From Frankia casuarinae (GTDB taxonomy: Bacteria > Actinomycetota > Actinomycetes > Frankiales > Frankiaceae): 64,000 nucleotides of DNA. The translations under genes and the position numbers were made by a program. The notes under the pieces were generated by a model. The model did no database searches. It was not told the DNA's origin and worked only from the letters and a program-made list of their open reading frames with translations. Location: the NCBI RefSeq assembly GCF_000013345.1, contig NC_007777.1, forward strand, positions 3,100,001 through 3,164,000, in the 5' to 3' direction. Of the stretch, positions 19,531 through 42,492 are shown piece after piece; the first letter of the stretch is position 1; the number at the start of each line of letters is the position of its first letter.

Positions 19531-19618
19531 CACCTCAGTCTGTCCGGTCCGGCAGGGTGATGTCACCGGACCGGACGGTGAGCGACATCTCTCCCACACC
19601 GTCCGGCCTACCGGACCA

Positions 19619-19762
19619 CACCGCTATCACGAACCGCACCGCTACCACGAACCGCACCGCTACCACGAACCGCACCGCTATCACGAACCGCACCGCTACC
19701 ACGAACCGCACCGCTACCACGAACCGCACCGCTACCACGAACCGCACCGCTACCACGAACCG
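19619..19762. repeat. 8 x 18-bp direct tandem repeat
   Basis: Eight head-to-tail copies of CACCGCTACCACGAACCG with no spacers; copies 1 and 4 have TATCAC instead of TACCAC. The array fills the gap between the DUF3090 stop and the SCO1664-like start. It could be read as HRYHEP (plus) or VRFVVA (minus), but no gene uses it. It is not a CRISPR array because unique spacers are absent. Confidence 0.95.
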
Positions 19763-19804
19763 CGCACCCGCGGCGGGCGGGCCCGGCGCCCCTCGCCGGC
19801 CGCA

Positions 19805-23758: not shown

Positions 23759-23854
23759 AGTGTCGGGGCGTACATCCCCGCCAGCAGGCGACTGCGGCCA
23801 CCCGACGGAAGGCGGTTCTCTGACAGGAGGCAAGATCGTGGCAGACGAGGGGGC

Positions 23855-25708
23855 ATGGTGAACGTAGACGCATCCGGGAGTCCAACCGTCGGCCAGGACA
23901 CCGGATCCGGGCCGGCGGTGCTCTCGGGTCCCCGCCGCCCCCAGGCGCCGGTGGACGTGACCGCGACCGCGGTCGTGGCCACAGCCGCGAACAGCGCCAC
24001 AGCCGCGAACAGCGCCACAGCCGCGAACAGCGCCACAGCCGCGAACAGCGCCACAGCCGCGAACAGCGCCACAGCCGCGAACAGCGCCACAGCCGATGTC
24101 ACGACCGGGACGGTCATCACGCCCGGGACCGCGCGCACGACCACCGCCGTGGCGCGGATCGCGGCGGCCAGCCCGCAGCTGCTGGTAGTCGCTGTCATAC
24201 TCGCCGTTGCCGCCGGCGCGCTGATGCGGTTCGCCACCCCCAGCCATCTGTGGCTCGACGAGTCGTTGACGGTCGCCATCGCCTCGCGCCCCGTCCCACA
24301 GCTGCTCGACGCGCTGCGGCACGACGGCTCACCGCCGCTGTACTACCTGCTGCTGCACGCCTGGATCGCGGTGTTCGGCGACGGGGACGTCGCCGTCCGG
24401 GCGTTGTCCGGGGTGCTGTCGCTGGCGACGCTGCCGGCGGCGTGGCTGGCCGGACGGCGGGTGGGCCGGACGGCCTTCCAGGCCGGCAACGGTGGCCGCG
24501 ACGCCGACGCCTGGGTGGGCTTGGCGACCCTGCTGATGTTCGCCTGCTCTCCCTACGCGATCCGCTACGGCAGCGAGACGCGGATGTACTCGCTGGTCGT
24601 CCTGTTGGTGCTGGTGTTCGGGCTCGCGACCGTGCGGGCGCTGGAACGCTCCGAGCCGGCACGGCTGGCGATGCTGACGCTGGCGACCGCCGCCCTCGTC
24701 TACACCCACTACTGGACGTTCCTGCTGATCTTCACCGTGGCGGCGTTCATGCTGCTACAGGCCCGGCGGCGACCCCAGTACCGGCAGGTGACCCTGCGGG
24801 CCTTCGCCGCGATGGCGGCTTCCGCCGTGCTGTTCGCGCCGTGGATGCCGTCGTTCCTGTTCCAGATGCTGCACACCGGAACGCCCTGGGCGCCCAAGGT
24901 GCAGGCCCAGGTGCTGCTGGACACGGTCTTCGACTGGGCCGGCCCGACCTCCACCGGTGCGCTGCTCGGCATCGTGCTGCTCGGGGGCGCGCTCATCGGC
25001 CTGACCGCGCGTCCGGACGGGCGGGAGCTCGCGGTCAAGGTCTCCGGCCGGGTGCCGGGCCGTTACCTGGCCGCGATCTGGCTGGTCCCCCTCGTCCTGG
25101 CCTACTGCGTGAACATGTTCGGCGGCAGCGCATATGCCGAGCGCTACACCGGCATCGCCCTGCCGGCCTGCCTGCTGCTCGCCTCGCTCGGCATCGCCCA
25201 ACTGCCGGGCCGGCGGGTGCGGGCCGGGGTACTGATCGTCGCCTCGCTCAGCGGCCTGCTCGGCGGGTGGCAGCTCGCCCGGACCGAACGCACCCAGGCC
25301 GGGGAGATCGCGGGCCGGATCGTCGCGCTGGCCCGGCCGGGAGACGTGGTCGCCTACTGCCCGGACCAGCTCGGCCCGGCCGTGCACCGGGCAATCGAAC
25401 GGCACGGCGAAGTCACGGTACGGGAGATCGTGTACGCGGACAGTTCCGGCCCGGCGCTCGTCGACTGGGTCGACTACGCCGACCGGATGAAACGGGCGAA
25501 CGGCACCAGCTTCGCGGCCGAGGTCAACGAACTGGCCGGCCCCGGCCACGCCGTGCTGCTCGTCCGCGCGGACGGTTACCGGTTCCTGGAGGGCGCCTGC
25601 GCCGTGCTGTCCGACCAACTCGCCACGCTGCGCGACCGCACCGTGCAGGTCGAGCGGCGCAACCTGTACGAGGGCGCGTCGCTGGAACGGTTCTCCACGC
25701 TGCGCTGA
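23855..25708 (+). CDS. GT39/ArnT-like membrane glycosyltransferase (paralogue A)
   Basis: A 617-aa polytopic membrane protein. After a low-complexity N-terminus with six SATAAN hexapeptides (18-bp repeats 23981-24088) comes the first helix, then HLWLDESLTVAIASRP, the acidic loop motif where GT39/PMT/ArnT enzymes bind the polyprenyl-phosphate sugar donor. RHDGSPPLYYLLLHAW and YGSETRMYSLVVLL are family motifs. The C-terminal soluble part has YCPDQLGPAVHR and LVDWVDYADRM, also found in the gene at 29337, so the two are paralogues. It probably glycosylates an envelope polymer or protein outside the membrane. Its 3' end overlaps the convergent gene by up to 133 bp. Confidence 0.85.
   Translation: MVNVDASGSPTVGQDTGSGPAVLSGPRRPQAPVDVTATAVVATAANSATAANSATAANSATAANSATAANSATAANSATADVTTGTVITPGTARTTTAVARIAAASPQLLVVAVILAVAAGALMRFATPSHLWLDESLTVAIASRPVPQLLDALRHDGSPPLYYLLLHAWIAVFGDGDVAVRALSGVLSLATLPAAWLAGRRVGRTAFQAGNGGRDADAWVGLATLLMFACSPYAIRYGSETRMYSLVVLLVLVFGLATVRALERSEPARLAMLTLATAALVYTHYWTFLLIFTVAAFMLLQARRRPQYRQVTLRAFAAMAASAVLFAPWMPSFLFQMLHTGTPWAPKVQAQVLLDTVFDWAGPTSTGALLGIVLLGGALIGLTARPDGRELAVKVSGRVPGRYLAAIWLVPLVLAYCVNMFGGSAYAERYTGIALPACLLLASLGIAQLPGRRVRAGVLIVASLSGLLGGWQLARTERTQAGEIAGRIVALARPGDVVAYCPDQLGPAVHRAIERHGEVTVREIVYADSSGPALVDWVDYADRMKRANGTSFAAEVNELAGPGHAVLLVRADGYRFLEGACAVLSDQLATLRDRTVQVERRNLYEGASLERFSTLR
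23981..24088 (+). repeat. 6 x 18-bp repeat coding SATAAN
   Basis: Six perfect copies of ACAGCCGCGAACAGCGCC inside the glycosyltransferase N-terminus encode a six-fold Ala/Thr/Asn/Ser hexapeptide. It precedes the first membrane helix, in the presumed cytosolic part. Confidence 0.95.
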
Positions 25709-27210
25709 CCGCCCGCGCGGGCGGGGTCGTCAACGGCGCGGGCGGGGTCGTCGACGGCGAGGGCCGCGACGGCCAGCACGAGCAGACCCATCGGCAACGT
25801 GTAGTGGTTGAAGAAGGTCTGCTTGTTCATCAGGTTCAGGGTGAGCAGGACCAACGCCGCCCCCAGGCAGAACCCGGTGGCGTCCCCGCGAGCCCGCCAG
25901 GCCGCCGTGTAGGCACCGAGGAGGGCGACCGCGGTCGAGCCGAATCCGAGCGTGACCCCGAAATGCGACGCCAGGCCCGGCAGGGACAGCGAGTGGGCGA
26001 GCACCTCGTAGTGGAGGTTCGTCCAGACCGCGTCGTCGAGAAAGTCCCGGGGACCGGCCAGCACCCAGGGGGCAACGAGGAGCGCCGCCGCGGCCGCGGC
26101 CGAGGCCGTCCGGCGGGGCCCGAACGCGGGGTAGCCCGCCGCCAGGGGGATCAGCAGCGCGACGTGCTGTTTGGTCGCCAGGGCGAGCGCGAACGTGACG
26201 ACCGCCACCCGTCCCCGCCCGCTCGTCGACGCCCACACCGTCGCCGCCAGGCACGCCACGAGCAACGGCTCGGTCCAGGACTGCTGCAGGGCGTACATCG
26301 ACTCGGGGAACACGACGACCAGCAACGGCAGCGCGGCCACCGCCGGCGCCGCGGGTGCCCGTCCCGCGACCGCGCGGATCAGGACCGCCGCCACCGCCAG
26401 GGCCAGCAGCAGGCCGTAACGGACGTCACCGAGCAGAAGCCGGAAGGGAGCCAGGAGCACGGACGTGACCGGTAGATAGGGGTAGACGTCGAACAGGCCG
26501 TCGACCGGGTACTCGGCCCGGCTCGGCGCCCATTGCTGCCGGTACATGTCGGCCCCGTGCGGCAGGCCGGCCGCGGAGACCTGGAGCAGGTGGAAGACGT
26601 CGATGCGGGGCGTCGGCGCGGCGCGGATCGTAGCGACGCCCGCCGCACAGGCCAAGGCCAGGACCAGCCAGAACACCCACGGAGAGGCGAGCACATCGAG
26701 CCGGCCCCGGCCCCGGTGGTGCTCCCGGCCGATCCGACGCCCCCGGCCGACGTGGTGCAGCATGACCATGATCGACCCGGCGGCGAGCAGGCCCGCGAGG
26801 ATCGCGAGCACGTCCGCCGCCGTGGCGAACCGGCCGGCGGCGTAGTAGCGGGGACGGCGCACGAGCGGCGCGACGCCGATCACGACCGCCACGAGCAGCC
26901 ACGCCCCGAACCACCCGCGCGGGCGCACGGCCACGGCGGTGCCGGCGGTGCTGCTGGTGCCGGCGGTGCTGCTGGTGCCGGCGGTGCTGCTGGTGCCGGC
27001 GGTGGCCACGACCGCCAGGACCACCGCCGCGAAACCTACCAGGACACTCGACAGCGCCCAGGCGCCGTACCGACCGTCCTTGGCCGCGATGCCACCGGCC
27101 ACCGCGCACCAACCGACCAGAATCGCCGGCATCACCCGCCCCGGAGGAACCGGCCCGTCCGGGGGAGGCGAGGTCTGCGGTGCCCGTTGGCCGGGTATCG
27201 ACAATCCCAT
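25576..27210 (-). CDS. Polytopic membrane protein, GT87-like mannosyltransferase family
   Basis: A protein of about 544 aa with a dozen hydrophobic helices. APTPRIDVFHLLQVSAAGL and the following ADMYRQQW with YPYLPVTSVLLAPFRLLLGD resemble GT87/PimE-like polyprenyl-phosphomannose-dependent mannosyltransferases. An 18-bp repeat (26941-26994) adds AGTSST units in an early loop. A 21-bp repeat near the end gives VDDPARA twice. The last ~45 residues are antisense to the neighbouring gene and look like read-through beyond a lost original stop. The start could be GTG 27234 or ATG 27210. The family call is based on fold style and context. Confidence 0.72.
   Translation of the reverse strand: MGLSIPGQRAPQTSPPPDGPVPPGRVMPAILVGWCAVAGGIAAKDGRYGAWALSSVLVGFAAVVLAVVATAGTSSTAGTSSTAGTSSTAGTAVAVRPRGWFGAWLLVAVVIGVAPLVRRPRYYAAGRFATAADVLAILAGLLAAGSIMVMLHHVGRGRRIGREHHRGRGRLDVLASPWVFWLVLALACAAGVATIRAAPTPRIDVFHLLQVSAAGLPHGADMYRQQWAPSRAEYPVDGLFDVYPYLPVTSVLLAPFRLLLGDVRYGLLLALAVAAVLIRAVAGRAPAAPAVAALPLLVVVFPESMYALQQSWTEPLLVACLAATVWASTSGRGRVAVVTFALALATKQHVALLIPLAAGYPAFGPRRTASAAAAAALLVAPWVLAGPRDFLDDAVWTNLHYEVLAHSLSLPGLASHFGVTLGFGSTAVALLGAYTAAWRARGDATGFCLGAALVLLTLNLMNKQTFFNHYTLPMGLLVLAVAALAVDDPARAVDDPARAGGQRSVENRSSDAPSYRLRRSTCTVRSRSVASWSDSTAQAPSRNR
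26941..26994. repeat. 3 x 18-bp repeat coding AGTSST on minus strand
   Basis: Three exact copies of GCCGGCGGTGCTGCTGGT in the minus-strand GT87-like gene produce repeated AGTSST in a loop between two helices. Confidence 0.9.
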
Positions 27211-27472
27211 GTGCGCACGATGCCAGAGCCCCACCCGATCAGGCGGCGCGGAGGCGCGTTATGGGAATAGGGCGGACGTATAACGGATCATCGCATCGTG
27301 TCGGGGCGAGGGGGTGCGGACAGGTCGAGGGGGTGCGGACGGGTCTCCGCTCGCGCCATGCAACACTTGCGACCCAGGACCGGTCCCAGGGGCCCGGCGT
27401 CCCGGTGGCGCGATGCCCGGTGTCCGTCCACCCGAGTGACCATGAGTGTGTGTTGAGGAGAGGTCCGGCACA

Positions 27473-40059: not shown

Positions 40060-41022
40060 TCAGGTGCCGGCGAGACGTTCGACGACCGGCGCCATGGCGG
40101 TCAACGCGTCCAGGGAGACCCCGATCGTGCTGAGGCCGAAGCGCTCGCGGCGCTCGACGAGGTCGTCGACGATCTCGTCGACCGACCCGCACAGCGCGTG
40201 CGGGGTCGCGAGCGCCTGTTCGGAGGTGAGCCCGAACCCGGCGGCCAACTGCTCGGCGACCTGGGTGCGGTTGTCGGTGACGACGACGAGGTGGACGCGG
40301 ACCTGAAGGGTGAGATCGTCCCAACGGGCGCCGGCGGCCTCCCGGATCCAGCGGACCTTCTCCTCGGTCGCCGCCGTCGTCGCGTTGGCGCCGAGCGAGG
40401 CGTCGATCACCCCGCCGGCCATGTTCATGTTCAGCCCGATGATGTCGGCCTCACGGGCGGCGAGGGTCAGCAGCCGGCGCCCGCCACCACCGATCACGAT
40501 CGGCGGGTGGGGCCGCTGCACCGGCTTCGGCGTCCCGTTCAGGCCGGCGACCTGGTAGTGGGTGCCGCTGTAGGTGAACGGTCCGTCGGCGAACATCCCC
40601 TTGATGACGGCGAGGGACTCGGCGAGCCGGCCGATGCGCACCCCCGGCGGATCGAGCGGCAGACCGGCTCGGGAGTAGTCGGAGGTCATCCAGCCGGCGC
40701 CGAGGCCGAGTTCGAACCGTCCGCCGGACAGCGCGTCGAGGGTCGCCGCCTCCTTGGCCAGCACCACCGGATGGCGGTAGTCGTTACTGAACACCATCGC
40801 GCCGATCCGCAGCGTCGTCGTCGCGTCGGCCGCGGCCATCAGCGCCGCGATCGGCGCGACCTGCTCGTCGAGATGGTCGGAGACGGTCAACGTCGCGTAG
40901 CCGAGATCCTCGACCCGGTGGGCGAGGTCGGCCCATGACCGGGCGCTCACCTCGGCGGGGGAGGAACACTGGATGTTGAACCGGAACGGCCGTTTGTACG
41001 GCCCGCCGGAGACCTCGGTCAC
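40060..41022 (-). CDS. LLM class F420-dependent oxidoreductase
   Basis: A 320-aa luciferase-like monooxygenase-fold protein, closest to the TIGR03621 actinobacterial group. PFRFNIQCSSPAEV, GYATLTVSDHLDEQVAPIAA, RIGAMVFSNDYRHPVVLAKE and GGRFELGLGAGWMTSDYSRA are typical of F420-binding members. The substrate is unknown. GTG at 41022 has GGAGGA 9 nt upstream, which decides the start over the GTG six bases earlier. An 89-nt gap separates it from the AGPS-like gene. Confidence 0.88.
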   Translation of the reverse strand: MTEVSGGPYKRPFRFNIQCSSPAEVSARSWADLAHRVEDLGYATLTVSDHLDEQVAPIAALMAAADATTTLRIGAMVFSNDYRHPVVLAKEAATLDALSGGRFELGLGAGWMTSDYSRAGLPLDPPGVRIGRLAESLAVIKGMFADGPFTYSGTHYQVAGLNGTPKPVQRPHPPIVIGGGGRRLLTLAAREADIIGLNMNMAGGVIDASLGANATTAATEEKVRWIREAAGARWDDLTLQVRVHLVVVTDNRTQVAEQLAAGFGLTSEQALATPHALCGSVDEIVDDLVERRERFGLSTIGVSLDALTAMAPVVERLAGT

Positions 41023-41253
41023 CGCAGCCACTCCTCCACTCACCGGGGCATCTCCAGGATGGGACACATCGAGGACGGGGCGCCTCGAAGACGGGACACC
41101 TCGAAGACGGGCACTCGCCGGTGGCATCCTCGAGGACGAGGCGGATACCAAGATAGCCCGTCGGGCGACCGGCGGCCGTCCCCGGCGCGACCCGACCGGC
41201 GCGACCCGACCGTCGTCAGACCGTCACCGGACCGACCCGATCGGCCCTAACCG

Positions 41254-41946
41254 TCACCGGACCGACCCGGCTGACCGGCGCAGCGACCGCAGGTACTCGC
41301 CGGCCGCCCGTGCCTGCTCCGGGGTCGGCGGCGGCTCGCGCAGTGCCTGGACGGCGGCACGGCGCGCCTCCCCGGTCAGCCGGTCGACGTAGAGGATCCC
41401 GTCGAGATGGTCGACCTCGTGCTGGAAGCAGCGCGCAAGCAGGCCCTCGCCGGCGTACTCGACCGGCTGCCCCGTAACGTCCACCCCGCGGACCCGCGCG
41501 GCCAGCGCCCGCGTGGTCGGGAAGTGCAGCCCCGGGACGGACAGGCATCCCTCCGGGCCGTGCTGCTGGGTCTCCCCGGACCGCTGGGTCTCCCCGGACC
41601 GCTGGGTCTCCCCGGACCGCTGGGTCTCCCCGGACCGCTGGATCCCGCCAGGCCGCTGGGTCTCCCCGGGCCGCCCCGGGTCCGGGCCGAGTTCCAGCAC
41701 CGGGTTCACCACCACCCGCGGCACCCGTGGTACCGACTCGTCACGCGGGTCGTAGTCGACGTCGAAGACGAACAGGCGCAGCCCGACCCCGATCTGCGGG
41801 GCGGCAAGCCCCACCCCGGGCGCGTCGTACATGGTGTCGATCATGTCGGTGACCAGCCGACCGAGCGCAGTGTCGAACTCCGTGACCAGCGTGGTCGGAG
41901 TGCGCAGAACGGGATCACCAACGGTGCGGATCGGGAGCACGGTCAT
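41254..41946 (-). CDS. def: Peptide deformylase with internal hexapeptide repeat insert
   Basis: A 230-aa enzyme that removes the formyl group from new proteins. All three catalytic motifs are intact: GVGLAAPQIG (motif I), EGCLSVPGLH (II, metal Cys) and CFQHEVDHLDGIL (III, HExxH). Between motifs I and II sits an insert of about 36 residues made of GETQRS-type hexapeptides (18-bp units 41567-41674), where ordinary deformylases have only a short surface loop. It is divergent from the Fur-family gene with 24 bp between starts. Confidence 0.93.
   Translation of the reverse strand: MTVLPIRTVGDPVLRTPTTLVTEFDTALGRLVTDMIDTMYDAPGVGLAAPQIGVGLRLFVFDVDYDPRDESVPRVPRVVVNPVLELGPDPGRPGETQRPGGIQRSGETQRSGETQRSGETQRSGETQQHGPEGCLSVPGLHFPTTRALAARVRGVDVTGQPVEYAGEGLLARCFQHEVDHLDGILYVDRLTGEARRAAVQALREPPPTPEQARAAGEYLRSLRRSAGSVR
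41567..41674. repeat. 6 x 18-bp repeat inside def
   Basis: Four exact copies of TGGGTCTCCCCGGACCGC (41567-41638), one diverged (41639-41656) and one near copy (41657-41674). They encode the GETQRS-type insert of peptide deformylase on the minus strand. Confidence 0.95.
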
Positions 41947-41970
41947 GCGGGATACTGTGCCACGTGAATC

Positions 41971-42492
41971 GTGAAGGACACCTGGATCGTGAAGGACAGT
42001 CAGACGGATCGTGACGGCCGGCGTGGCGATCCGTCCGCCGCCGGGATCGCCGCGTTGCGCGCCCGCGGGGAGCGGGTTACCCCGGCCCGCCGGGCGGTGC
42101 TCCAGGTACTCGCCGGCACGAGCGAGCACCTGTCCGTTGACGACGTCTTCGCCCGGGCGGAGACGATCGTCCCGGGCATGCACCGCACCACCGTCTATCG
42201 CGCGGTGGAGACCCTCGGCGACCTCGGCCTGGTCACCCACGTCCACCCCGACCACGGGCCGGCCGTCTACCACCTGGCGGCGGCCCTCACCGGCGGCGCC
42301 CACCTGCACGTCCGGTGCCGCTCCTGCGGCACGATCCTCGACGTGCCCGCGGACCTGCTCGACGACGTCGCGCGTCGGCTCGCCACCACCGTCGGGTTCA
42401 CCCTGCAGCCCGACCACGCCGCCCTTGCCGGTCGGTGCCGCGCCTGTTCGGTGACGTCCCCGTCCGTGGACGGGGACCTCGCACCCGCATGA
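41971..42492 (+). CDS. Fur family transcriptional regulator (Zur-like)
   Basis: A protein of up to 173 aa. [18 protein letters not shown] starts the winged helix, [20 protein letters not shown] is the recognition region, and [16 protein letters not shown] with [10 protein letters not shown] carry the two structural CxxC zinc motifs plus the His metal site. The metal could be zinc, iron or manganese; the His-rich HLHVRC segment fits Zur or FurB. The 5' end is an 18-bp duplication, so GTG 41971 and GTG 41989 are both possible starts; GAAGGA supports 41989. It is divergent from def and may control it. Confidence 0.88.

Follow-up and report, generated by a model that had tools for sequence, protein, structure and literature searches.

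A tandem hexapeptide insert in a Frankia peptide deformylase, and an 18-bp limit in the duplication spectrum

The peptide deformylase gene (def) of Frankia casuarinae carries an array of 18-bp units at the tip of a hairpin close to the second catalytic motif of the enzyme. This insert probably arose not long ago, when slippage extended the native hairpin turn in frame, and is probably tolerated and close to neutral; it would be one result of the repeat-forming tendency seen in the Frankia genomes sampled. In all likelihood, a repeat-rich genome has here produced something ordinary that the enzyme tolerates, and not a special device. The more interesting lead is the spectrum of short tandem duplications to which it belongs, which is capped at 18 bp.

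The gene and its array

The window (the whole stretch of DNA analysed, 64,000 nucleotides) comes from positions 3100001-3164000 of a genome assembled as one contig of 5,433,628 bases, with a G+C content of 0.702 in the sampled stretches. The features at issue are as follows.

41254..41946 including the stop codon, minus strand: def, peptide deformylase gene, 230 amino acids (open reading frame, PF01327 match, and a corresponding start methionine in orthologs)
41794..41817, minus strand: motif I, GVGLAAPQ, intact
41539..41553, minus strand: motif II, EGCLS, intact
41398..41424, minus strand: motif III, QHEVDHLDG, intact
41554..41700, minus strand: whole expanded hairpin loop, VNP to EGCLS, 49 residues (14 in short-loop relatives)
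41560..41667, minus strand: six 18-bp units in codon register, between motifs I and II (TRF and translation)
41667-41650, minus strand: unit 1, GETQRP
41649-41632, minus strand: unit 2, GGIQRS
41631-41578, minus strand: units 3-5, three identical GETQRS
41577-41560, minus strand: unit 6, GETQQH
40060..41151, minus strand: luciferase-like monooxygenase (PF00296), downstream neighbour of def (open reading frame and Pfam)
41971..42492, plus strand: Fur-family regulator (PF01475), upstream neighbour, divergent from def (open reading frame and Pfam)

The def product belongs to the PF01327 family, scoring 150.8 bits against the profile (cut-off 22.8) and covering positions 2-153 of 156. It has all three deformylase motifs in the form set out in the available text of PMC12690207: GVGLAAPQ, EGCLS, and QHEVDHLDG. 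Presumably, it is an active enzyme. The monooxygenase gene adjoins def in all 11 other genus members in which def was seen, and fur does so in 10, the eleventh (G009) ending at a contig edge. Over 25 loci (several per genome), the monooxygenase was found in 22 and fur in 19; neither lies beside def in a metagenome-assembled genome, MAG L041 (3564 bases covered), or in two Pseudonocardia loci. The window also contains putative gcp/tsaD and ureG genes, labelled by reading their translations, and a synteny-figure legend in PMC2464607 names def, gcp, and ureG among the genes around fur.

TRF calls the array at 41565-41674, with a period of 18, 6.1 copies, 90% matches, and a score of 178, which ranks third among the 49 non-overlapping arrays of the window. 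One run of order-3 Markov resampling (20 stretches, 400 kb, same genome) yielded no array of at least three copies, and a top score of 83. The array is an intragenic tandem repeat (VNTR-like): beyond chance, in frame, and arranged head to tail. Its last unit finishes two residues ahead of motif II. Four exact copies in the register GGTCTCCCCGGACCGCTG occupy 41569-41640, and these are the only exact ones in the 5.43-Mb genome; outside the array, no genome site has fewer than 2 mismatches to the unit. A dispersed repeat or mobile element is ruled out as the source, since the exact unit is confined to the array and even the next nearest sites differ at 2 positions.

The original prediction had described six 18-bp units at 41567-41674, four of them identical, inserted recently between motifs I and II of an otherwise intact deformylase. 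All of this is confirmed apart from the register: by codons the array runs from 41560 to 41667, and there the identical copies number three, the count of four holding in the GGTCTCCCCGGACCGCTG register. Recency is borne out by the three to four identical units, and by the lack of GETQRS-type units in the 11 other genus orthologs seen. Units 1 and 2 have diverged, however, so a single recent burst did not make the whole array.

(On the opposite strand an open frame, at best a putative gene, crosses def at 41407-41967 of the window, plus strand, and reads the array as collagen-like GLPGPL.)

The loop, its relatives, and its origin

In an AlphaFold model of the def product (mean pLDDT 85.5), most core blocks exceed 90, and residues 91-120, between hairpin strands 77-86 and 127-134, stand at 45-48. 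The repeat is therefore predicted to be a disordered hairpin tip on a confident deformylase core; the earlier description of a polar loop agrees with this modelled disorder. By the order of strands in the model, residues 62-76 would correspond to the CD-loop. The insert sits in the next hairpin, which on this predicted order argues against its being the CD-loop itself. The alignment behind the model contained 53 of 81 sequences (the window and 80 loci); L089, which has a stop codon, and eight others were omitted by choice from 62.

A deformylase fold is likewise predicted from fold matches to the enzymes of L. pneumophila (6ck7: Z 25.7, 167 residues, 2.1 A, 44% identity) and M. tuberculosis (3e3u: Z 23.7, 169 residues, 2.3 A, 52% identity), the low-confidence stretch lying outside both alignments. 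By sequence, 3e3u is the nearest solved PF01327 deformylase. It shares the fold, the three motifs, and the overall plan of def, except for the loop: phmmer returns two pieces, 1-90 and 130-203, and skips the repeat.

Insertions in deformylases have precedents. Type 2 enzymes have the CD-loop and type 1A enzymes a long insertion, according to the portions available of PMC5071857 and PMC5591237, and these enzymes resemble def in carrying loop insertions in a conserved core. Those insertions, however, are presented as characteristic of a type, whereas the def insert is a tandem repeat seen in one of the 12 genus genomes compared. The original prediction had raised a possible effect of copy number on stability or ribosome contact; the accessible part of PMC5591237 places the ribosome contact of E. 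coli deformylase in the C-terminal helix, a site different from the position of the def insert. E. coli tolA (as described in extracts of PMC3477136) and def both have an in-frame repeat tract within a conserved gene but, unlike that of tolA, the def repeat occupies a hairpin of a compact enzyme. Literature joining deformylase, CD loop, and insertion was searched for, and nothing was found.

Comparison within the genus covered 13 genomes including this one, one genome per species. Eight of the 12 others have a 14-residue loop. The def loop here is 35 residues longer, the extra residues lying in the hairpin that joins the VVVNP strand to the strand of motif II. Three others have long loops of unrelated, acidic, low-complexity sequence: G007, 55 residues; G012, 58; and G008, 64. 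In a family-wide Pfam search of 84 rows, the four longest deformylase spans (570-612 bp) are the four long-loop genes, and the next is 510 bp. MAG L041 (Frankia alni NGEE_A_bin25), which is placed in another genus of the family and was counted apart, has a loop of 12 residues. In the twelfth genome, G005, def was unseen: fur reaches the end of contig C398, the monooxygenase opens C793, and def is expected between them. Loss of def from G005 was set aside, as the contig break falls at the expected position. (A long repeat at def may underlie this break in the G005 assembly.)

The eight short loops suggest where the unit came from. Their turns read GERQHG, GEHQHG, GEQQEG, GESQHG, or GARQDG; here, the loop closes with GETQQHG, one residue before EGCLS, as the short loops do. 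The unit is thus most simply a multiplied native turn and not foreign sequence. This suggests a course of events that starts from a GERQ- or GETQ-like stretch of the hairpin: duplication would have doubled it as an 18-bp unit, which slippage may then have multiplied; divergent units 1 and 2, followed by three identical ones, form a pattern that slippage could leave. As 18 is divisible by three and a disordered stretch can be accommodated at the tip of the hairpin, the enzyme would still fold and the expansion would be tolerated, two further deformylase genes presumably helping. Frankia genomes tend to form short tandem arrays, the units reaching up to 18 bp, and the def array would be one example. 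A tree of 156 core codons sets G007, G012, and G008 apart (support 97/99) and puts this genome among the short-loop genomes with weak support (52/86). With the placement so weak, the present loop might instead descend from a long one of greater age that some lineages have replaced or lost.

Long loops are present in four of the 12 genomes with the gene seen, and could be favoured in some lineages. The long polar loop might be selected, altering access to the active site for substrate or for natural inhibitors such as actinonin. Motif II residues take part in inhibitor binding, and the last unit, two residues away, ends beside them; one extra motif II residue is considered a potential reason why actinonin binds an integron deformylase less strongly (in the text available from PMC12690207); and loops of different sequence have lengthened the same site in three further genomes. 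Nevertheless, selection is improbable. The inserts share no common sequence, and the net charge of the loop is -1 here versus -11 to -13 in the three long-loop relatives. Moreover, eight relatives manage without a long loop, and species-specific repeats also occupy linkers of unrelated genes. The evidence points to tolerance rather than benefit.

Redundancy offers a different explanation. The genome has three deformylase genes, def and two more; the original prediction had advised looking for a second. One, at 17 kb, has GVGLAANQ, EGCLS, and QHETDH. The other, at 5.07 Mb, has GLGIAAPQ, EGCLS, and AHEIDH at the end of a 571-residue frame (L003:307-2019). Three or four deformylase-family matches occur in each of the 13 genus genomes. 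More than one deformylase was reported for 48% of the bacterial species surveyed in PMC12690207, and Def is essential in M. smegmatis with fmt present (PMC6815462), as far as the available text of each goes. A species with three def copies, presumably, need not depend on each.

(Near the start of the 571-residue frame there is an HTH_31 match of 24.5 bits, below the cut-off of 27. In all 13 genus genomes, an open frame of at least 571 residues includes a similar, weaker deformylase match, the helix-turn-helix having been checked in this genome. A deformylase domain joined to a regulator would be an unusual arrangement.)

Could def be a redundant paralog heading to decay, the repeat being a first sign of lost constraint? 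The three genes, and the failure to find the ortholog in G005, might suggest so. This is improbable, since the motifs are intact, the G005 absence coincides with the break between C398 and C793, and core dN/dS (Nei-Gojobori, 156 codons) against the eight short-loop genomes is 0.127-0.199. (Values against the three long-loop genomes and MAG L041 are 0.172-0.205 and 0.258.) Low core dN/dS indicates that the enzyme is constrained, although the loop varies freely between species. An origin of the array in faulty assembly or sequencing is very unlikely indeed: there is a single assembly, and tandem repeats are error-prone, but the array spans about 108 bp, units 1 and 2 differ from the rest, the assembly is in one contig, and the reading frame is kept.

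The original reading of the insert as functionally telling is only partly supported. The insert had been called striking for an essential, compact enzyme, a judgement weakened by the two other def genes, by the unrelated inserts in relatives, and by the abundance of such arrays in the genus. Relatives with unrelated loops of similar length, according to that same prediction, would mean that the site simply tolerates inserts; the three relatives with 55-64 residues at the same hairpin indicate just that. Taken alone, the def insert shows a redundant enzyme tolerating a longer loop. Seen alongside its relatives, it indicates that the deformylase hairpin by motif II can take 35 to 50 extra residues.

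Short tandem arrays and the 18-bp limit

Of wider interest is what the def insert brings to light: short tandem duplications are in excess in Frankia and cut off sharply at 18 bp, whether the sequence is coding or not. Abundance was measured by TRF in twenty 20-kb stretches (400 kb) from each of six genomes: this genome and two congeners (L151-L210), and three controls of similar G+C (L211-L270), one from another genus of the family (G028) and two from other families of the class. Counting arrays with a period of 9-60, at least 3 copies, and at least 85% matches, there are 72, 55, and 58 per 400 kb in Frankia, versus 7, 11, and 9 in the controls. This is equivalent to 14-18 per 100 kb in the three Frankia and 1.7-2.8 in the three other high-GC actinobacteria. 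Once two-copy arrays are counted as well, little of the genus excess is left, the densities per 100 kb being 63.0, 67.8, and 55.0 in Frankia versus 39.5, 41.0, and 24.8 in the controls. In total arrays (at least 2 copies) per 20-kb stretch, this genome showed no difference from its two congeners (p 0.27, 0.20).

The loci around def genes were counted separately, leaving out own-genome loci, same-place duplicates, and L274-L297. There are 14 arrays in 58,951 bp (18 loci) of the genus; 2 in 66,533 bp (20 loci) of other genera of the family; and 3 in 245,165 bp (72 loci) of other taxa, which include 27 high-GC actinomycete loci with 2 in 94,199 bp. Among arrays of at least 3 copies in the three Frankia, periods divisible by three make up 83-98% in coding and 47-65% in noncoding sequence, by a crude coding mask.

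A count of exact copies, independent of TRF and with arrays 20-80% inside the coding mask dropped, reveals the limit. In the Frankia trio (1,263,300 bp, counting the window with the first), arrays of period 14-18 number 247 (159 in coding and 88 in noncoding sequence), and those of period 19-24 number 13 (5 coding, 8 noncoding). The three controls (1,199,900 bp) have 28 and 6, respectively: 19 and 2 in G028, and 9 and 3, and 0 and 1, in the others. Thus, G028, of the same family, has a similar limit at about a quarter of the Frankia number. Coding exact arrays in Frankia number 79 for period 18 versus 3 for period 21. Noncoding arrays number 15, 9, and 16 for periods 14, 16, and 17, versus 3, 0, 0, and 0 for periods 19, 20, 22, and 23; this drop past 18 argues that the limit is not merely a reading-frame effect. 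The 18-bp def unit lies at the mode of the Frankia duplication spectrum.

Several candidate causes of the pattern were tried and rejected. Hairpin-forming units do not account for expansion: 141 units (period 12-24, at least 3 copies, three genomes) fold no better than their own shuffles (mean z 0.18; def unit 0.76). The 256 exact arrays of period 14-18 show sequence enrichment (CCGG, 115 versus 74 expected; CGAACC, 18 versus 4, with the highest z, 7.1) and no common site that would serve as a recognition motif. NucS was found in 12 of the 13 Frankia sensu stricto genomes and in 20 of the 22 other members of the family, which contradicts missing NucS mismatch repair as a cause. Likewise, missing end joining is contradicted by Ku in all 13 and in 21 of 22.

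One tentative proposal, to which we give somewhat less than an even chance, is that a mutational process of its own operates in Frankia sensu stricto. It would make exact duplications of 18 bp or less, at about eight times the level of the three other high-GC actinobacteria sampled (four times that of the own-family one), and would thereby remodel loops and linkers of conserved proteins, among them the deformylase hairpin; the limit would point to a physical ruler in an unnamed repair or replication step. The genus excess and the 18-bp limit both rest on partial sampling of six genomes, three of Frankia and three controls. If the pattern holds in more genomes, it offers a route to the size-setting step, as well as markers to tell Frankia isolates apart.

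Searches on Frankia tandem repeats, Frankia deformylase, and short tandem duplications returned no such description in the titles and abstract starts of the matches listed. The excess may already be in print, since PMC4447401, from the part available, has a supplementary table of tandem repeats in four Frankia strains. Short tandem arrays are not treated in the available portions of PMC2770080 and PMC3188489.

Elsewhere in the window, two protein linkers contain repeats: TAANSA at 23978-24095 (frame 23759-25708) and TAGTSS at 26938-27004 (frame 25576-27258). Among the aligned species (11 and 8 relatives covering the linker; for the second gene, 3 of 11 relatives do not cover it), most have differing repeats or filler in these linkers. 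Both genes have glycosyltransferase-like Pfam matches that are weak and below the cut-off. The top-scoring array of the window, at 19615-19763, has 8.3 copies of an 18-bp unit; it would read HRYHEP in one frame, or RFVVAV on the opposite strand.
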